31,836 nt of DNA from a virus, in IMG/VR virus record IMGVR_UViG_3300030117_003339, positions 1-31,836 of that record. One strand, written 5' to 3'. Positions 1-18,243 of the stretch are shown here, piece by piece. Below the pieces are notes generated by a model. It saw nothing but the letters and a program-made list of their open reading frames with translations, was not told the origin of the DNA and ran no database searches. Numbering within the stretch: the first letter of the stretch is position 1; each line of letters opens with the position of its first letter. The position numbers were made by a program, and so were the translations under genes.

Positions 1-159
1 ACGATTATGTTTACGCATTGACTCTTCATCAATCTTTCTTGCTTCATCAATAGCATACTTGATGAGAGCATCCACTTCTTCTTTAGTGTATGTGTCTTTA
101 CTCATAGGTTTTCTGATAACCTCAGTGAGTGGGAAATCCTTAATTAAAGTTCTTACCAT
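1..159 (-). CDS. partial hypothetical protein (C-terminus outside window)
   Basis: An open frame of 53 codons runs off the left edge. Starting at 159 it reads MVRTLIKDFPLTEV and then a charged helical stretch (KEEVDALIKYAIDEARKI). The ATG at 159 overlaps the stop of the upstream halogenase-like gene (ATGGTAA), which suggests coupled translation. A second in-frame ATG at 105 (MSKDTYTKEE) is equally possible, because neither start has a clear ribosome binding site. No family is recognised. It looks like a small soluble helical protein, last visible member of the halogenase operon. Confidence 0.55.
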   Translation of the reverse strand, partial: MVRTLIKDFPLTEVIRKPMSKDTYTKEEVDALIKYAIDEARKIDEESMRKHNR

Positions 160-1538
160 GTTATTGGATCGAGGTTGATTTCTCCGAAAGGTTCGGATGA
201 TGGTGGTAACATGTCTGTCATTAATGGAAATAGGTGAGCATAAGGTGAACCGAGACCTCTAGTAGTCTCAGTAAATATCTGATAACTACCTAACAATCTA
301 TATGGTTCATCAGATACAGCAGTTTGTTTTTGTCTCAAACGCTGTTCATCATCTGCTAATCTCCTAAAATAATCTAAACGAATATTCTCCTCTGGTGGGA
401 TGAGTTCATTCATTTTAAGATATTCATATTGTATGAGATTTGTAGATATATCAAAGTATTCTCTATTCTCTAAACATAAACACGCATTTGTTCTAGTTTG
501 TTCCCAGAACTCAGTTTTATATTGAGAACCTTCCTGTAGATAGAAACCGAGTGATGATGCACAATCTTTTTTGCCATCTTGATATCTGTCCTCTACATCT
601 AATCTTTGATATTCTGTCTGTTGTCTCTCAGGGTCTTCAAACAGATACATTGATATTGCTTCTGCTAAATCTCCTTCAAGATAGTTTTTAAAGTTGTTTA
701 ACTCATCATTAAACCCCAATGCACGACCACATCTTGCATACCTATTATTAGGATGAATACAATAGTCTGATAATAGTTTATCATATTCACTTATCTTAGG
801 CAACTCATTTGTTGTTATTTCACAATGGTTATTAAAATCTAAAATTGCATCATCAAGTGTTGTTATATCTTTATCATATGAATATATCCATGTTTGAGCA
901 TCTTTAATAGGAATGCCTGTTAAATATCCATGTTTACCTGCAATATGTGCAGTATAATTCCATTTACCCTCTACATTTTTATGAACTGTTAGAGATGCAT
1001 TTGTTGGATTATATAATGCTTCACTATAAGAATCATGATCCCATAATGCACCCCTAGTACAATCAATTACAAAATCATATTTCTCATCTAATATTTTAAT
1101 ACAATCATTTTGTACATCAATACTATCTACATGAGCATCAATCATCCTAACATTTTTGGCAGTATTAGTATAACTATTCCAGAATAAATCTACCATTTTT
1201 CTACCGTTTAAATGCCAACCCACATGAGTTAGTTCATACAGTACATAAAAATTATGTGGTGTGTCATTACCAAATCCAATAAACTTTTTACCCCACTTTT
1301 GTTTACCATCTAATAATCTTGATAGATGTATTGAACTTAATGTAGTATTCTCCCCAACTATTTCTCCCCACTCGGACTCGGTTTGTATTCCATAGTCATC
1401 AATAATATGAGAACAATCACGAATCCAAACTATTTCATCATCCTGATATACACTATCCATAGTATCTCTATGTGACACGCAATTCAATAATACTTGTACT
1501 GCATCAGTACCACCAATAATAGCAATTTTTCTAGTCAT
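153..1538 (-). CDS. divergent flavin-dependent halogenase-like protein
   Basis: This 461-aa protein aligns by eye with the halogenase-like protein encoded immediately upstream. Both have an N-terminal Rossmann strand (KIAIIGG), a GENTT stretch near residue 62, a K-W-G-K-K-F-I-G-F-G segment at 81-90, DFVIDC at 155-160 and a GIP motif at 208-210. K81 falls at the position of the active-site lysine of PrnA-type tryptophan halogenases. However, the nucleotide-binding GxGxxG is degraded to GGTDAV, and the WxWxIP signature reads YLTGIP. I infer a halogenase-fold paralogue that may be inactive, may act on another substrate, or may partner its neighbour. It lies 3 nt after the neighbour's stop, so the pair is probably cotranscribed. 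Family membership is fairly sure; halogenating activity is unproven. Confidence 0.65.
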   Translation of the reverse strand: MTRKIAIIGGTDAVQVLLNCVSHRDTMDSVYQDDEIVWIRDCSHIIDDYGIQTESEWGEIVGENTTLSSIHLSRLLDGKQKWGKKFIGFGNDTPHNFYVLYELTHVGWHLNGRKMVDLFWNSYTNTAKNVRMIDAHVDSIDVQNDCIKILDEKYDFVIDCTRGALWDHDSYSEALYNPTNASLTVHKNVEGKWNYTAHIAGKHGYLTGIPIKDAQTWIYSYDKDITTLDDAILDFNNHCEITTNELPKISEYDKLLSDYCIHPNNRYARCGRALGFNDELNNFKNYLEGDLAEAISMYLFEDPERQQTEYQRLDVEDRYQDGKKDCASSLGFYLQEGSQYKTEFWEQTRTNACLCLENREYFDISTNLIQYEYLKMNELIPPEENIRLDYFRRLADDEQRLRQKQTAVSDEPYRLLGSYQIFTETTRGLGSPYAHLFPLMTDMLPPSSEPFGEINLDPITW

Positions 1539-1541
1539 AAG

Positions 1542-2849
1542 TTATGTAAATGTAGGAAACTTGTCGGCATAATCTGCACTCATTCCTCTAGTAAATGAAC
1601 TGAAGTTATAATAATCACGACAGAAATCGAAAGTAAACTCAAGATCAAGTAGATCATGAACAAATAACTTTCTCATTTCTGGGTCATCCCCTATAATATT
1701 AAACAAATCATCAGTAAATGTTTGTTCATCACTTATTAAACGACAAGGATTAATCTCCTTATTATTTAATATATCTTTAGCATTTTTCTGGACTTGTTGC
1801 CAGAATGGGGTGTCATGTTCTGAACCAAAATGATACATCCATGCAGCATTTAATAACCAATCCCCAACAACTTCTTGATAATACCAACTATTGATATCAT
1901 TAATCAGTTCTATGTTATTATATGTATCGCCGAGAGCATAATTTGCCATCTTATCTGTCACATTATCATAATACATACCTGCTAGTGCTTCAAGTGGGTC
2001 AAGAAATCCTAACGCATTTCCATTACGAGCATATCTACCACTATGATGTAACACATAGTTTGAGAATTTAGGTTTCCAAGTAAACTTATTATATTGATGT
2101 CCTTCTTGAGGAACTAGACTTCTAAAATCTTGCTGTGCCTCCTCTTCTGTTGTAACACTTGAATTATAAGCATAACCATAAGTTCTCCTGCTTTGCAATG
2201 GAATTCCAAACATCCAACCATTTCGAGTGGTCTGTGTTAATGTATAACCCCAATCTGCAGGTTCTGGTAGTCTAGTAGCAAGAACTGTATTACAAGTTTC
2301 AAAGGGTGAATCGAAGTAATAATCATCATTCACCAGTGATTTGCCACCACTACAATCTAATACAAAATCAAATGACTCCCCATCAATAACAACACCAAAG
2401 CAATGTCCACCTATAGGGTCTTGATCGAAACTTATTGATTTTATTTTAGTATCTCTTGACTCAAAATTATAACAACTCTCTTCATTTAGATGTTCAATAA
2501 AGAAACTACTGAATAATCTAGTATCAAAATGAATAGCAGCAGTACTCATAGGAAAGTATCTGGTAAAATCTCCACCATTTTTACCCCATCCTACAAATCT
2601 ATTACCAAACTTGATAGTGGCATCAAAATAATCTTTAGAATCATATCTCAAATATGATGGTGGACTAGCAATTTGCCCTGATAATGATGGTGTTGTTGAC
2701 TCTCCAATACCAAATATATCTACTGATGTATCATATAACCATACTATTGTACAATCATTTTCTGCATTAAGGTTAGTTCGCTGTTCTATCAACTGTAGAA
2801 TAGAAGTAATACCAATAACACCTGCACCGATAACAGCGATCTTTTTCAT
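1542..2849 (-). CDS. tryptophan halogenase-like flavoenzyme
   Basis: This 435-aa protein has the hallmarks of flavin-dependent tryptophan halogenases: an FAD-binding GAGVIG at residues 8-13, FGIGESTTP at 46-54 (compare GxGEAT.P in PrnA), a lysine at 80 in the sequence ATIKFGNRFVGWG matching the catalytic lysine, DFVLDCSG at 161-168, and GWMFGIP at 211-217, a near match to WxWxIP with Phe in place of the second Trp. The family uses FADH2, O2 and halide to make hypohalous acid, which the lysine relays to a substrate. The length is somewhat below the usual 500-540 aa. Halogenase homologues are known from marine cyanophages, but their substrate is not established. The start codon overlaps the next gene's stop by ATGA or lies 3 nt away, so the cluster is operonic. 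Confidence 0.75.
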   Translation of the reverse strand: MKKIAVIGAGVIGITSILQLIEQRTNLNAENDCTIVWLYDTSVDIFGIGESTTPSLSGQIASPPSYLRYDSKDYFDATIKFGNRFVGWGKNGGDFTRYFPMSTAAIHFDTRLFSSFFIEHLNEESCYNFESRDTKIKSISFDQDPIGGHCFGVVIDGESFDFVLDCSGGKSLVNDDYYFDSPFETCNTVLATRLPEPADWGYTLTQTTRNGWMFGIPLQSRRTYGYAYNSSVTTEEEAQQDFRSLVPQEGHQYNKFTWKPKFSNYVLHHSGRYARNGNALGFLDPLEALAGMYYDNVTDKMANYALGDTYNNIELINDINSWYYQEVVGDWLLNAAWMYHFGSEHDTPFWQQVQKNAKDILNNKEINPCRLISDEQTFTDDLFNIIGDDPEMRKLFVHDLLDLEFTFDFCRDYYNFSSFTRGMSADYADKFPTFT

Positions 2850-4680: not shown

Positions 4681-6384
4681 TTAGTAGATTACTTTAATAT
4701 CTCCATTATTGGGTTTAACTTCATACTTGCTACCAGCAACTGCACGACCTGCATTACCACCTTGTGAACCACCTGCTTCACCCCAGTCACCACCATTACC
4801 ACCAGGTTGACCAGGTTGACCTGGTTGACCAGGATTTCCAGGATTGCCAGGTGTACCAGGTTGACCAGGTTGACCATCGTTACCCTTTGCACCTGGTTGA
4901 CCATCGCCACCAGGTGTGCCAGGTGTACCAGGTGTTCCTGGTGTACCAGGTGTTCCTGGTGTAGCAGCGTTACAACTTGCAGCACCACCAGGTGTACCAG
5001 GTGTACCATTACTGGCAGGTGTTCCACTTCCACCAGGTGTGCCAGGTGTTCCTGGTTGTCCACTTCCGCCAGGTGTACCAGGTGTTCCTGCTCCTCCTCC
5101 ACCACCAGGTGTGCCTGGTGTTCCGAAACTACCAGGTGTTCCTGTTATGTTACCAGTCTTATAATTCCAGCCACGACCTGGTGCAGCTGTACCACCTAAT
5201 CCTTTTACTCCACCTTGTCCTGAATAACCTGCAGGTCCTCCAGTTCCACCCTGACCACCGCCACCGCCAGAGCCACCCTGACCACCTTGACCGCCACCAC
5301 CAGAATTACCATGTAAACCTTTAGAACCAGCATTACCAGCTGAACCACCGAAACATGCCATTTTTGACTGTGCTGCTGACCTTGACTGAGCAGAACCAGT
5401 TGCCTGAAATGATGTTCTACCCTGAATTTGTCCACGACGACTACGAGGCCACCCACCAAATCTTTTTCTGCGAGAACTTCTTGATTGACTAGTTGATCTA
5501 GTTTGTACTGTAGATCTTTGTTGATATGTGGTTCTTTGCATACCAGGTGTACCAGTCTGACCAGGTTGACCATTTGAACCATCAGATCCATCGCTACCTG
5601 CACCACCATCATTACCATTTGAACCAGGTGTGCCTGGTGTACCAGGTGTACCAGGCACTCCAGTACTCTCTCCACTACCAGGTGTGCCATCAGTACCATC
5701 AGTACCATTTTTTCCACCACCACCTCCACCATATATCCTAGCGTCTGAACCTTCGCACTCTACAAATACTTTTCTAATCGCAGGACCTGATGGTTGACTG
5801 ATACTAATAGCATGTCCACCAGGTTGATTGATACCACCACCTGCACCATACACACCATAAGATGATGGTGCATTGTTAACAAATACTGTTAGGTTAGATG
5901 ATGGTTGATCGGCAACAGCAGCAGGATTTGATGTATTGGTACTTACTAGTCTACCTTTAATCTTGAGATATTTTGATATATTTTTATTTAAGTTTGAGTT
6001 CCAATCAGCATTGATACTAGGTGTTGTAGGACTGCTTAGAGTAGTAACATTAAAGTTCTCTTCTTCTGTCAATGTGTCCTGTTCAATCACATATTCTTTT
6101 ATAACTCCTCTAATATCCTGTGGTGTTATAGCACCACTAGTAGGTACACCAACATTCTCAGTAGCATCTAAAACATAAGGTAGATGTGGTGTTGATGATG
6201 ATGGATATTTACCCTGACTAAAATCATATGGTGCATCAAGGTCTGTTTGTCTATGTAATTCTGAGGCAGAAATAGATTTACTAGTATCACCTATAGCAGC
6301 ACGAATTTCACCAAATGATATTTGTGTGCCAGGTGTACCAGTCAATAACTGTTGAGTTGTCTTACTCCAATTATTTGCTGCCAT
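4681..6384 (-). CDS. collagen-like virion/tail protein
   Basis: This 567-aa protein has a roughly 200-residue N-terminal part without repeats, beginning with WSKTTQQLLTGTPG and ISFGEIRAAIG, followed by Gly-X-Y collagen-like blocks from about residue 215 to 540. The triplets are mostly GTP, with GQP, GSN and GND. A non-collagenous insert at about 280-345, rich in Arg, Ser and Gln, interrupts the repeats. The final residues (SKYEVKPNNGDIKVIY) look like a beta-strand cap. Collagen-like segments form trimeric rods in phage fibres, so this is probably a tail-fibre or virion-surface rod. The start is supported by GAGG about 7 nt upstream. A 2OG dioxygenase gene follows directly. Exact virion position is not shown by the sequence. 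Confidence 0.85.
   Translation of the reverse strand: MAANNWSKTTQQLLTGTPGTQISFGEIRAAIGDTSKSISASELHRQTDLDAPYDFSQGKYPSSSTPHLPYVLDATENVGVPTSGAITPQDIRGVIKEYVIEQDTLTEEENFNVTTLSSPTTPSINADWNSNLNKNISKYLKIKGRLVSTNTSNPAAVADQPSSNLTVFVNNAPSSYGVYGAGGGINQPGGHAISISQPSGPAIRKVFVECEGSDARIYGGGGGGKNGTDGTDGTPGSGESTGVPGTPGTPGTPGSNGNDGGAGSDGSDGSNGQPGQTGTPGMQRTTYQQRSTVQTRSTSQSRSSRRKRFGGWPRSRRGQIQGRTSFQATGSAQSRSAAQSKMACFGGSAGNAGSKGLHGNSGGGGQGGQGGSGGGGGQGGTGGPAGYSGQGGVKGLGGTAAPGRGWNYKTGNITGTPGSFGTPGTPGGGGGAGTPGTPGGSGQPGTPGTPGGSGTPASNGTPGTPGGAASCNAATPGTPGTPGTPGTPGTPGGDGQPGAKGNDGQPGQPGTPGNPGNPGQPGQPGQPGGNGGDWGEAGGSQGGNAGRAVAGSKYEVKPNNGDIKVIY
4801..5733 (-). repeat. low-complexity Gly-X-Y coding repeats
   Basis: Within the collagen-like gene the DNA is a degenerate 9-base repeat; on the plus strand it reads ccaggtgta/ccaggtgttcc over and over, encoding GTP and related triplets. 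It is densest at 4801-5160 and again at about 5560-5700, with the Arg/Ser/Gln-rich insert between. Such repeats create spurious open frames on both strands and can expand or contract by slippage or recombination. Confidence 0.85.
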
Positions 6385-14409: not shown

Positions 14410-14667
14410 ATGGATTTTCAAAAAGTAACTACAGGAGTAACAGCAGCAGCAGTTGTAGGAACTGGTGCAGTTGTTGGTGGTGGTCAAGTTATTGACAATA
14501 TGAATAATGGACCTGCTAGGAGACAAGAGGCACAATTAGAAGAGATTAGAAAAGTTGTTAGAGAAGAAATTTATAAACAACTGGTAGATAATTGGCCGAA
14601 GTCATCTGGTCCTGTCAAAGGATTGAAACCACCTGTAGACTACAAAAATCAAATTCCAACTCAATGA
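14410..14667 (+). CDS. small hypothetical protein with glycine-rich hydrophobic segment
   Basis: This 85-aa protein has an N-terminal apolar, Gly/Ala/Val-rich stretch at about residues 8-27 (TGVTAAAVVGTGAVVGGG). A charged helix at 38-58 (RRQEAQLEEIRKVVREEIYK) and a proline-containing tail follow. The apolar part could be a short membrane helix. No family is recognised. It sits behind tandem late promoters and 13 nt before the next plus-strand gene, so a late, possibly virion or membrane-associated role is inferred only from context. Confidence 0.65.
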   Translation: MDFQKVTTGVTAAAVVGTGAVVGGGQVIDNMNNGPARRQEAQLEEIRKVVREEIYKQLVDNWPKSSGPVKGLKPPVDYKNQIPTQ

Positions 14668-14680
14668 ATAAATCATTATT

Positions 14681-15556
14681 ATGGAACCATTTGAAATACC
14701 AAATATAGAAACTGAAGGTGTTAATATACCTAATATCCAGATTAATGGAACTGAGATTCGATTGATTCCTAATTCTGGTGTAAGAGGTATTGGTAATAAT
14801 TATGTACAAGATAATAGAGTGTGGTTAATTACACCACCACAATCTATACCAATAACAATTCCTGTTACTGAAACAATAGGAACTCCTATTGTTGATATGC
14901 CTGGTTGCGTAAAAGTCCATAAAGAAAACGCAAAAAATCCACAAAACAAAAACAAAATGTTAGTGGATAACGATCCTAAAGGAAATGTAGTATTATGTGA
15001 TGGTGGTATGCCATACTATGACCCACCTGATTATGATGCTAGAGATTTAACTTGGCAAACTGTAACAACAGAAGAACCTGAAGCTCAAGGTGTAGATACT
15101 GGAGATCCACCTCCACCTGATATAGACACTCCACAACCGCCTGTAACACCTCCAACTGATAAAGAAGTAGAATGTCCTCCTATCAATGGAAGACGAGTTG
15201 GAGACCTAAATCAAGAGGGTACAGAGAGAGTAACTGGTCATAAATTAACACCTGATGGGTTAATCTGTGAGACATTGTGGGAAGATGTTCCAACATTGCA
15301 ACAGTATGTACCGTCAGTATCTGTAGTATCAACTACCGCAGCTATAGCTACTGTGGCAACTGCGTCTGCCCTATTTGCCAAACCCCTAGCAGATTTGCTC
15401 CTGAGGGTGGTGAAACCTGTAGTGAAGAAAGCTCTTGGGAAGGTTCAGACGATCCTTGGGAAGACTCCTCAACGGGCTTCGAGATCCGATAGGATTCGGG
15501 ATCGTTATCGGGAGAAGAAAGGGTTACCTCCTCTGAAGGTGAAGAAGAAGAAGTAG
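14681..15556 (+). CDS. hypothetical virion-type protein with basic C-terminus
   Basis: This 291-aa protein starts MEPFEIPNIETEGVNIPNIQ. Its middle is rich in proline and acidic residues (about 125-165, DTGDPPPPDIDTPQPPVTPP), followed by an alanine-rich apolar segment at about 216-245 and a strongly basic tail (SDRIRDRYREKKGL, ending KVKKKK). No enzymatic motif is seen. The last 209 bp overlap the end of the convergent minus-strand gene, and there codon use shifts sharply to G/C at third positions. Membrane-anchor plus nucleic-acid- or surface-binding tail is possible. Function is unknown. Confidence 0.7.
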   Translation: MEPFEIPNIETEGVNIPNIQINGTEIRLIPNSGVRGIGNNYVQDNRVWLITPPQSIPITIPVTETIGTPIVDMPGCVKVHKENAKNPQNKNKMLVDNDPKGNVVLCDGGMPYYDPPDYDARDLTWQTVTTEEPEAQGVDTGDPPPPDIDTPQPPVTPPTDKEVECPPINGRRVGDLNQEGTERVTGHKLTPDGLICETLWEDVPTLQQYVPSVSVVSTTAAIATVATASALFAKPLADLLLRVVKPVVKKALGKVQTILGKTPQRASRSDRIRDRYREKKGLPPLKVKKKK

Positions 15557-16364
15557 GTGGTGTCCACTTAGGTTGTGGTATTTCATGTTGATGTGGTATT
15601 ATCTGACCACCAGGTGATGTTACAACTACATCAGCACAAATACTATGATATGGCGATGCAGGGTGGAAAAATATACCAGATTTTTTTAGCTCACCACAAT
15701 TTTTTAATCTTGCGATCTCGAAATCTAATCTTTTGTTAGAAACTAATTGAGTTTGCATTGCTATTTGTTGCTCAGCTGCCTGTTGACATAACTCCTTCAT
15801 TTTCTTATTCAATGGTACTGATAAAGTAGCAGATATACCAATATTAAATGATTGGTTTGCTCTCATATCAGTCCTTATAGGTTTATACCATATTGGATCT
15901 AAAGTATTATTAGTTACAGCATCAGGTACACCGTCTCCTGCAGGTACTTCAACCTCTATTTGCATATCAGCACCATCAGCAAACCATCTAGTACCATCAT
16001 CCTTAGTGCGGTTATCGTACCATGTCTCCCAAGGATAGTTTTGAACTGTTATTGTTTGAGTGACTGTTCTACCAGATATATCTGTTAAATTATATTGTGG
16101 TTCGTTATAAAAATCTTCCCAAGGATGCTTTCTGCTATCAGCAAACTGCATGTATGGTGTCATATTGAGAGTTGTACTCTGACACGATACACCATTACCG
16201 TAGGTGTTAGTTACATATGGACCTTGTAAAACTTGTATTGCCTGGTTGGTCACTGAGCCTGAAGAATTGGCAATAGGGTTGGCAGTAGCACTAACACCAC
16301 CAACACCTTCAGCTAAGGCTTTCATTGGTAACAAATAGTTAACGCCCAAAAGCGTTGCTATCAC
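15348..16364 (-). CDS. exported hypothetical protein, GTG start
   Basis: I start this gene at the GTG at 16364, which overlaps the upstream gene's TGA as GTGA, giving 338 aa. The frame stays open further upstream but only as an Arg/Asn/Gln-rich shadow of the neighbour. The N-terminus is apolar (IATLLGVNYLLP) and then ALA-E, a plausible Sec cleavage site, although the short n-region lacks an early basic residue. Mature features include VLQGPYVTNTYGNG, twin PWE motifs (HPWEDFY and YPWETWY), a helical segment (MKELCQQAAEQQIAMQTQ) and a Ser/Pro/Glu-rich tail. No family name is recognised. The last 209 bp are antiparallel to the end of the plus-strand gene. It is the third gene of an exported-protein cassette. 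Confidence 0.65.
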   Translation of the reverse strand: MIATLLGVNYLLPMKALAEGVGGVSATANPIANSSGSVTNQAIQVLQGPYVTNTYGNGVSCQSTTLNMTPYMQFADSRKHPWEDFYNEPQYNLTDISGRTVTQTITVQNYPWETWYDNRTKDDGTRWFADGADMQIEVEVPAGDGVPDAVTNNTLDPIWYKPIRTDMRANQSFNIGISATLSVPLNKKMKELCQQAAEQQIAMQTQLVSNKRLDFEIARLKNCGELKKSGIFFHPASPYHSICADVVVTSPGGQIIPHQHEIPQPKWTPPTSSSSPSEEVTLSSPDNDPESYRISKPVEESSQGSSEPSQELSSLQVSPPSGANLLGVWQIGQTQLPQ

Positions 16365-16828
16365 TGGGTAAATGTACTTGTTGTATCTGTTACGCTTTGT
16401 ATAGTTGTTACTCTTTGTATTATTGTCTGATTCGTCATACCAGGTCCTTGATAACTCTGAGTGAATTGGAAGGCTGCACCTGGCGTTGTTAGGGTGAAGT
16501 TGTTTGTTTGAGAGAAGTCTAAACTGTCGAAGGAAGAAGTTACGCTGCCTGTTACTGCTGCGTCTCCTGACCCTACGGTTGGGTTGACCGTTACTGTCGA
16601 TGTTGATGTTGGTGGGTTTAATGGCTGACCATTGTTGTCTATGCCTACCCCAGTCACTGAGTATTCCCATCCTGTCCTATAATCAATGGAATTTATGGTT
16701 TCCGTTACTGTAGATTCAGTTTCGGTATGGCTCGTCATAGAGCCTTGCTGAAAATTGGGGACCACTGGCACTGCTCTCGCTGCACCAGTACTACCTAACA
16801 ATACTAATATAGTTATAAGCCTTTTCAT
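16361..16828 (-). CDS. exported hypothetical protein B
   Basis: This 155-aa protein begins MKRLITILVLLGSTGAARA-V, a textbook Sec signal peptide with basic n-region, apolar core and ARA cleavage site. The mature part is Thr/Ser/Val-rich and beta-like, with VTGVGID at about 58-64 and GAAFQFTQSYQG near 115-126. The latter pair of motifs recurs in the upstream gene (ISGSGVD and GATFSFSQAY), so the two are likely paralogues. AGGT lies 4 nt before the ATG. Its stop overlaps the GTG start of the downstream exported protein. It probably acts in the host periplasm or at the envelope. Function unknown. Confidence 0.7.
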   Translation of the reverse strand: MKRLITILVLLGSTGAARAVPVVPNFQQGSMTSHTETESTVTETINSIDYRTGWEYSVTGVGIDNNGQPLNPPTSTSTVTVNPTVGSGDAAVTGSVTSSFDSLDFSQTNNFTLTTPGAAFQFTQSYQGPGMTNQTIIQRVTTIQSVTDTTSTFTQ

Positions 16829-16836
16829 GACCTATT

Positions 16837-17331
16837 TTATCTTATTGTAACCTCGGTTACGAACTGAGTTGTAGCTGAAGTATTAGCTCCACCAGGTGCC
16901 ACAGCACTAAAAGCGTGTGAACTAGATGTTTGACCAGCTAAATTACCAACTGTTCCTCCTGCCGTACTGACAACATTACCAAAATTAGCAGTCTCGCCAA
17001 CTGTTACAGCACCTGTAGGAACTGCATCGGCTTGAGTGTAGGCTTGGCTAAAGCTAAAAGTTGCACCAGGAACATCCTGAGTTGCTGAAATTGTACCAGG
17101 AGCATATACACCTGATGTTATGGTTCCAGCAGAAATAGTATTAGCAGTAGTACCATCAGTGGTATCAACACCACTACCAGAAATCGAGAAAGATGACCCA
17201 ATTCTCTCAGCCGAAGTATGGGCTCCTCCTACGCTCAACTGCACACTGGATGCATATCGAGTTGTAATATCGGCTCTCGCTGCAAGCGGAGCACTCATCA
17301 ATAACATTATTAAAGGGATAAACCTTTTCAT
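16837..17331 (-). CDS. exported hypothetical protein A
   Basis: This 164-aa protein begins MKRFIPLIMLLMSAPLAARA-D, a clear Sec signal peptide. The mature domain is small-residue-rich, with alternating beta-like Ser/Thr/Val/Gly, and shares SISGSGVD and GATFSFSQAY with the next gene, suggesting duplication. There are no cysteines in the mature part and no membrane segment after the signal. It is first of three exported-protein genes (8-nt gap to the second), behind a late-promoter-like CCTAAATA. Export of three consecutive phage products is unusual; roles in lysis, superinfection exclusion or host-surface modification are possible, none shown. Confidence 0.7.
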   Translation of the reverse strand: MKRFIPLIMLLMSAPLAARADITTRYASSVQLSVGGAHTSAERIGSSFSISGSGVDTTDGTTANTISAGTITSGVYAPGTISATQDVPGATFSFSQAYTQADAVPTGAVTVGETANFGNVVSTAGGTVGNLAGQTSSSHAFSAVAPGGANTSATTQFVTEVTIR

Positions 17332-17355: not shown

Positions 17356-17363
17356 TATTTAGG
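17356..17363 (-). promoter_or_regulatory. possible late promoter CCTAAATA
   Basis: The minus strand reads CCTAAATA in the 45-nt gap between the nitrilase-family gene and the exported-protein cassette, about 25 nt before the ATG at 17331. It is one base off the NATAAATA late motif. The same stretch has a GCCT/AGGC inverted repeat that could form a small hairpin. Confidence 0.35.
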
Positions 17364-17376
17364 CATTTTTACTTTG

Positions 17377-18243
17377 TCATTTCTGATACAACCTACCACC
17401 TATATCATTGTAAACATCAGATAGTTTTGTACGCACTGGTGGTTCAAAGTCATATGTAAAATATTGACGACCTCTTCTAGGCACTTGAGTCTGCCATCCC
17501 TGACTATCAATCCATCCACTCTCACTAGATGTAGTGTATTTGTCTACTTCATCCTCATTTCCATCCCATAACCAATCAGTACAAGCATCAACAGTAAATA
17601 TAGGAACCATACAATTCCATGCTGCCATTCTAAGGTAAGCATCATGCCATTTCTCAAATACTAACCATGATGGATTACTTGGATCGGTTTTCCCACCATT
17701 AGTTGCATGTAATATTACATCAAGAATTCCTAGTTCTTTGTATAGTGTAGTAATAGGTTTAGTAGATGCCTCTGCATATCCCCACATATCATTACATATC
17801 AATCCAGCACCAAGACATTGTTTCTCATCATCTTTAACAAGATCAATAATAGTAAATGAATCTACTTGTGGATCTCTGCCAAGAGCAGTTTCCATATCAA
17901 CGCAAAGAGTCTTGTATGTAGCACCTCTTAGTATACCATCAGAATCATAATGTCTGATTTCATTTCTATTGATTATACCTTTCTCTTCTGGTTCTACAAA
18001 ATTGGTTCCTAAGTGTAAATATATTCCTGCTGCTTTTTGAGCATCTTCAATCTCTTTTAATCCATCTTTAATCTCATCCATATGGGTAATCCACTCACGA
18101 TCCCATCCTGATAAAGCAGCTTCTGGTGTTAAAAGATGATCTACTTTGTTTTCTTTTGCCCAGTCAATTGCTTTTAAAATTTCTTTTTTGTTAGCTTGTA
18201 TATTAGTTCCTACAGGAATTTGAGCACCACCAAATCTAATCAT
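17377..18243 (-). CDS. carbon-nitrogen hydrolase (nitrilase superfamily)
   Basis: This 288-aa protein carries the Glu-Lys-Cys triad of the nitrilase superfamily: E41 in TPEAALSGW, K111 in ATYKTLCVD and C150 in AGLICNDMW. The length matches the family. These enzymes hydrolyse non-peptide C-N bonds in nitriles, amides or carbamoyl compounds through a cysteine thioester. The C-terminal half, with ILHATNGGKTDPS and many Trp/Asp residues, is divergent, so the substrate cannot be predicted. The start overlaps the upstream oxygenase stop by 8 nt. It is the last gene of the talC operon, and thus probably expressed early with carbon-metabolism genes. An amidase releasing ammonia is one possibility. 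Confidence 0.82.
   Translation of the reverse strand: MIRFGGAQIPVGTNIQANKKEILKAIDWAKENKVDHLLTPEAALSGWDREWITHMDEIKDGLKEIEDAQKAAGIYLHLGTNFVEPEEKGIINRNEIRHYDSDGILRGATYKTLCVDMETALGRDPQVDSFTIIDLVKDDEKQCLGAGLICNDMWGYAEASTKPITTLYKELGILDVILHATNGGKTDPSNPSWLVFEKWHDAYLRMAAWNCMVPIFTVDACTDWLWDGNEDEVDKYTTSSESGWIDSQGWQTQVPRRGRQYFTYDFEPPVRTKLSDVYNDIGGRLYQK

Follow-up and report, generated by a model that had tools for sequence, protein, structure and literature searches.

The window, the whole stretch of DNA that we analysed, is the 31.8 kb record of a virus, a T4-like marine cyanophage. It carries three minus-strand open reading frames at 15348–17331, where the first-pass annotation had described a three-gene cassette of exported proteins: gene 1 (16837–17331, 164 aa), coding for an exported Ser/Thr/Gly-rich protein; gene 2 (16361–16828, 155 aa), coding for an exported, distant paralogue of gene 1; and gene 3 (15348–16670, 440 aa if read from an internal ATG, see below). 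Significant full-length profile matches assign them to PHROG 564 (E 9e-61), PHROG 650 (E 4e-50) and PHROG 848 (E 9e-100), respectively; gene 2 also matches the Pfam family DUF6322 above the cut-off (E 5e-38). According to the record notes of relatives, genes 1, 2 and 3 correspond to T4-GC237, T4-GC236 and T4-GC235, and gene 1 is named 'OMP1 protein' in some records. All three PHROGs are large families without an assigned function; the earlier statement that no known family is represented was therefore wrong in a narrow sense only. Searches with tblastn found gene 1 in 403 phage records, gene 2 in 407 and gene 3 in 419, all of which carry names of Synechococcus, Prochlorococcus, cyanophage, marine or uncultured viruses. 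All three exported proteins are real, and their conservation extends over about 400 records of T4-like marine cyanophages.

The same statement is also countered by Sullivan et al. (2010, PMC3037559), whose account of a 'mobile hypothetical gene cluster' describes most of the cassette. That cluster comprises five hypothetical genes (T4-GC 218, 219, 234, 235 and 237), found in all cyanophages except S-PM2, and a functional link between them is presumed probable. By record labels, T4-GC 237, 236, 235 and 234 are common to the published cluster and the window; unlike the cluster, the window copy has T4-GC231 and lacks T4-GC218 within the 31.8 kb. The passages of that paper devoted to the cluster mention neither export nor an overlap, and neither a counterpart in T7-like phages nor a homologue in hosts. 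In S-PM2, genes 1 and 3 and T4-GC218 are all absent together.

When a simple rule on the n-, h- and c-regions was applied throughout the window, the starts of genes 1 and 2 came out as the most signal-peptide-like. The predicted Sec signal peptide of gene 1 (MKRFIPLIMLLMSAPLAARA followed by D; 17272–17331, minus) is kept in all the full-length relatives listed, and that of gene 2 (MKRLITILVLLGSTGAARA followed by V; 16772–16828, minus) in all of the full-length relatives inspected. Export of the two proteins, previously proposed on the basis of textbook signal peptides, is therefore supported at the level of the predicted signals. Both proteins lack Cys. Their suggested duplication also holds: the shared motifs are real (SFSISGSGVD and GATFSFSQAY in gene 1; EYSVTGVGID and GAAFQFTQSY in gene 2), and hhalign gives the profiles of the mature proteins a collinear alignment that scores 39.8, the highest score among 60 column shuffles being 18.7. 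By this profile comparison, the two genes are distantly related duplicates. Matches of the gene 2 profile to WD40 proteins in the PDB contained no significant stretch, looked compositional and were discarded.

Gene 3 is predicted to code for a basic N-terminal extension, a hydrophobic segment with an AxA site followed by E, a periplasmic-type domain and a Ser/Pro/Glu-rich tail. The only hydrophobic segment (16308–16364, minus) ends in KALA followed by E, and the basic n-region of this signal sequence falls within the gene 2 overlap. The site A-x-A followed by E or Q is conserved in relatives, suggesting cleavage. A signal peptide had been considered plausible for this third protein, and all three genes carry predicted Sec-type export signals. 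Four Cys are invariant in the mature protein in the alignment of relatives, which fits an oxidizing compartment and a disulphide-bonded periplasmic protein. The two PWE motifs noticed earlier are both present and are not family-defining, because the first can also be PYE or PFE and the second sits in an insertion restricted to one clade. AlphaFold models of gene 3 (pTM 0.27) and gene 2 (pTM 0.36) were weak and gave no usable structural match; PDB matches to lysenin, aerolysin and phage tail proteins reached TM-scores of no more than about 0.2, and we set them aside. Profile matches to FlgH (E 0.014), PorP/SprF (E 0.003) and C19orf12 fell below the cut-offs and were ignored.

The first-pass annotation missed an internal start of gene 3 within gene 2. 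The two genes overlap on the same strand at 16361–16670 (minus), gene 3 being read in the −1 frame, with 102 codons from its ATG (16668–16670) to the junction. This ATG arises from the gene 2 codons GGA-TGG (Gly-Trp). For 81 distinct loci of T4-like relatives, we lined up the gene 2 stops with the frames of gene 3. All of them have gene 3 in the −1 frame relative to gene 2, and its hydrophobic signal segment begins at the gene 2 stop. A start codon at the junction is absent in most of these loci, and every relative without a junction ATG has an in-frame ATG within gene 2, located 102–108 codons upstream in the clade of the window (52 loci) and 54–58 codons upstream in a second clade (28 loci). 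In six loci, gene 3 starts at a canonical ATGA (MKRVIAALLLLSAPVQA-like), and the −1 frame is closed 7–13 codons upstream.

The −1 frame is open over 102 codons in 52 of 52 loci and over 54 codons in 28 of 28. Synonymous codon resampling of gene 2 predicts such openness by chance in 0.1 per cent and 3 per cent of cases, respectively; the loci are related, with 24 and 15 left at 85 per cent nucleotide non-redundancy. Over the same lengths, the +1 frame is open in none of the loci of the two clades. The GGA codon that forms the start is kept in 51 of 51 sequences, and no other conserved Gly column is entirely GGA. The last 25 residues of gene 3 within the overlap carry a charge of +3.3, compared with −0.6 expected from resampling. 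Synonymous identity is 0.58 in the overlap, barely above the values for gene 1 (0.54) and the non-overlapping part of gene 2 (0.57). Strong protein-level constraint on the extension was dropped on these grounds; synonymous variation being only slightly reduced, most of the extension does not seem to be constrained in sequence. It appears to be constrained in its start, its openness and its charge. The internal ATG is retained in relatives that are 31–70 per cent identical (genome contigs). The most divergent cassette, at 31 per cent identity, is on contig L114 of an Alphaproteobacteria single-cell assembly; it retains the overlap, and a T4-GC218-like gene lies immediately upstream of gene 1 there.

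The constant −1 phase is also what would be expected if ribosomes reached gene 3 by a −1 frameshift close to the gene 2 stop, or initiated at a GTG, ATA or GTA overlapping that stop, the internal ATG being incidental. In the window, a GTG (16362–16364, minus) does overlap the gene 2 stop as GTGA. This codon is restricted to the window and its close relatives, and was rejected as a general start of gene 3 because other relatives lack it. Most relatives have no start codon of any kind at the junction, and some have just nine or so hydrophobic residues after it, too few for a signal peptide. A common slippery heptamer was not seen by eye in the list of junctions, and the open frame extends beyond the junction to the ATG. 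We consider frameshifting or a junction start quite unlikely, and conclude from the pattern of frames and codons that gene 3 is predicted to start at the ATG inside gene 2, in the −1 frame.

Public annotations treat this pair differently. The record of P-SSM7 (L001:5017–7035) has no gene 2, since the annotated gene 3 begins at the internal ATG, and in P-SSP7 (L141) gene 3 is annotated as starting only after gene 2 has ended.

The other end of gene 3 is also shared. A convergent gene on the plus strand (14681–15556; PHROG 570, T4-GC234) codes for a protein with a C-terminal transmembrane segment and a basic tail, and overlaps gene 3 tail to tail over 209 nt (15348–15556, both strands). The Ser/Pro/Glu-rich tail of gene 3 had been recognized correctly; what had been overlooked is that it is antisense to the 3′ end of this gene and variable in length among relatives, other clades having shorter tails or none. 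In the clade of the window, the antisense frame is open far above expectation (mean chance 0.03 per sequence, 45 loci), and the tail may therefore be functional in this clade. Taking the gene 2 and antisense overlaps together, about 170 of the 440 codons of gene 3 share their DNA with another gene.

Next to the convergent gene lies a small membrane protein gene (14410–14667, plus; 85 aa, one N-terminal transmembrane segment; PHROG 22018, T4-GC231). By hydropathy, the genes linked to the cassette in T4-like phages mostly code for such small membrane proteins: T4-GC218 has two transmembrane segments (DUF6450), T4-GC219 two hydrophobic segments, and T4-GC414 (labelled 'plasmid stability'), T4-GC234 and T4-GC231 one transmembrane segment each. 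The earlier placement of the cassette in a phage structural region is right for one side, which has tail-fibre-like genes; on the other side there is a nitrilase-like gene, and the placement differs elsewhere. This adjoining gene (window 17377–18243) resembles carbon–nitrogen hydrolases, with a strong match to PHROG 36475 and a Pfam match below the cut-off. Near the tail-fibre genes, a 567 aa protein (window 4681–6384) contains long Gly-Pro-Thr/Asn (collagen-like) repeats, and two neighbouring open reading frames (window 153–2849) resemble flavin-dependent tryptophan halogenases by eye. In several T4-like cyanophages, the cassette adjoins hsp20, near regA/gp62 and gp43.

A CTAAATA-like element (window 17361–17370), about 30 nt upstream of gene 1, is common in relatives and is a candidate late promoter; the exact late promoter NATAAATA upstream of gene 1 was found in only five of 47 distinct relatives and was not retained. 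The cassette also occurs on a 188 kb contig (L112 / G001:C10) of the Nonlabens xiamenensis assembly. The presence of psbA on the same contig identifies it as cyanophage contamination in a public bacterial genome, and a Flavobacteria host for the cassette was rejected.

A compact form of the cassette, also missed in the earlier account, recurs in T7-like cyanophages at the position of the lysis locus. It was first found on a T7-like cyanophage contig (L127) during a search of cyanobacterial genomes, and tblastn then located it in P-SSP7, S-RIP1/2, NATL1A-7, S-TIP37, P-GSP1 and others. The gene order is one-transmembrane protein, two-transmembrane protein, gene 2 and gene 3, between the tail fibres and the terminase; in annotated T7-like records, it is immediately 5′ of the small terminase gene, and P-SCSP1a has a rearranged cassette adjoining the large terminase gene. 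The record note for gene 43 of P-SSP7 gives two transmembrane segments. The gene 3 profiles of T4-like and T7-like phages match with E 6.7e-28. Gene 2 and gene 3 overlap here as well, gene 3 starting at −63, −68 or −36 codons; taken singly, these shorter overlaps give weak to moderate openness (P 0.006–0.47). The exception is P-SCSP1a, in which gene 3 has an ordinary 23-residue signal peptide and is in the other frame.

Of 250 genomes from the host order, about 17 also encode a homologue of gene 3; an additional match is a phage contig. The host profile matches those of gene 3 with E 6.5e-8 (T4-like) and 5.5e-14 (T7-like). The host genes sit in operons with paralogous exported proteins. In one such operon (L124/L128), the gene 3 homologue has a signal peptide and the same Cys/GI motif, and lies beside two paralogous exported proteins; unlike the phage cassette, the operon is chromosomal, with no overlap and no phage-type transmembrane partners. 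No similarity was detected between genes 1 and 2 and the neighbours in host operons. The operon of genome G133 (L128:2676–6604) codes for secreted low-complexity proteins of 378, 138, 137, 199, 167 and 224 aa, two of which are paralogues; none was assigned to a known family. The operon may specify a structure of the cell surface. These operons indicate that the gene 3 family is not lysis-specific.

We favour the view that the cassette is a cyanophage-specific envelope module, whose likeliest role is in the late-infection breakdown of the outer layers of picocyanobacteria. We give this reading a probability of roughly 0.45, as function is deduced from position and export signals. It falls within the options listed in the first-pass annotation (lysis, superinfection exclusion or envelope remodelling). 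We know of no genes for bursting the host envelope in these cyanophages. In phage T7, the interval from tail fibre to terminase contains the holin gene 17.5, TerS (18), Rz/Rz1 (18.5/18.7) and TerL (19). The compact cassette lies in this same interval and resembles the T7 lysis genes in having a small two-transmembrane protein beside an envelope-targeted pair in overlapping frames. It differs in that no sequence similarity to the T7 genes was found, in having predicted cleavable signal peptides and no lipoprotein, and in position relative to TerS, the cassette pair being 5′ and the T7 spanins 3′ of it.

A survey of spanins lists the T4-like phages P-HM1, P-SSM2, P-SSM4, P-SSM7, Syn33, S-SM1 and S-SSM5 and the T7-like P-SSP7 as spanin-less, and raises an alternative route through the outer membrane as a question (PMC6139136). 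Two-component spanins of the Rz/Rz1 type are overlapping same-strand pairs, with the −1 frame allowed, and have periplasmic domains and cysteines (PMC6139136). Gene 2 and gene 3 are likewise an overlapping pair in different frames, with predicted periplasmic domains and, in gene 3, cysteines; a location in the lysis region applies, by position, to the T7-like relatives only and not to the T4-like phages. In contrast to Rz/Rz1, the pair has no lipobox, no predicted stable inner-membrane anchor, and larger domains. A rule-based scan found no lipobox in the N-termini of genes 1–3, so none of them would be an o-spanin, and gene 3, with its conserved AxA site pointing to cleavage, would probably not be a classical anchored i-spanin. 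The gene 2/gene 3 pair is best read as possibly spanin-like in action but not as a member of a spanin family. T4-GC218 has, by hydropathy, the two transmembrane segments of a class II holin; it matched no holin model, only DUF6450 and PHROGs of unknown function.

In the mechanism that we propose, T4-GC218 would be a putative holin. The role of spanins would be taken by the exported products of genes 2 and 3, acting either at the outer membrane or within the periplasm, and gene 1 would be an extra copy of gene 2 in T4-like phages. Translation of gene 3 would initiate at the ATG within gene 2, and the overlap would provide a long basic N-terminus that orients the signal sequence until cleavage at A-x-A before E or Q. 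Position, export signals, overlap architecture and small membrane partners together make the cassette the best candidate spanin substitute known to us. Against a role in lysis, no endolysin was found beside the cassette, and in T4-like phages the cassette is placed among replication genes. The case of S-PM2 counts on both sides: genes 1 and 3 and T4-GC218 are absent together, and the phage manages without them.

The exported proteins could instead alter the host outer membrane and block adsorption or injection by other phages. Such superinfection exclusion or surface remodelling would account for the export signals, for the likeness of the Cys-free, Ser/Thr/Gly-rich products of genes 1 and 2 to surface proteins, and for the gene 3 homologues in host operons of secreted proteins. 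It would leave unexplained the linkage to a two-transmembrane protein and the tail-fibre-to-terminase location, which holds lysis genes in T7. Exclusion proteins, including Imm and Sp of the T4 type, were not among the PHROG and Pfam matches of genes 1–3; the significant PHROG matches were all to families of unknown function. We regard this explanation as unlikely. A similarly improbable alternative is that gene 3 was captured from a cyanobacterial surface-structure operon and kept its function, as part of an appendage, matrix or adhesin, rather than serving in lysis. The occurrence of host homologues beside paralogous exported proteins (about 17 of 250 genomes) and the closeness of podophage gene 3 to the host profile (E 5.5e-14) argue for such an origin; the lack of detectable similarity between genes 1 and 2 and the host neighbours, and of a host-operon counterpart of the small transmembrane proteins linked in phages, argue against it.

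Cyanobacterial Sec also supplies the thylakoid lumen, and the signal peptides might target proteins that adjust photosynthesis during infection; the cassette of P-HM1 is indeed near psbA, psbD and hli genes, but this neighbourhood is not general, hsp20 being beside the cassette in other phages, and no similarity to lumenal proteins was found, which makes this explanation very unlikely. The least probable alternative is that these are virion decoration proteins with accidental export signals: the cassette does adjoin tail-fibre-like genes in the window, but the records of S-SM1, for which mass spectrometry of the virion is available, and S-TIM5 label T4-GC234–237 'hypothetical protein' and others 'virion structural protein', an indirect argument based on labels.

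Envelope breakdown late in infection is thus the reading that we retain. A more specific version of it, which we hold only tentatively, is that T4-like and T7-like cyanophages may have in common a lipoprotein-free module for outer-membrane disruption, partly related to a cyanobacterial secreted-protein operon, with its key gene overprinted, that replaces spanins. Whatever the function, the gene 2/gene 3 pair is a deeply conserved overprint in abundant viruses, on which gene callers are inconsistent. If the proposed function is true, the cassette would be a spanin replacement in phages long considered spanin-less. The hosts of these cyanophages, Prochlorococcus and Synechococcus, are the commonest photosynthetic bacteria of the ocean, and a cassette present in about 400 T4-like and many T7-like records would then govern the share of ocean primary production that is released by lysis.
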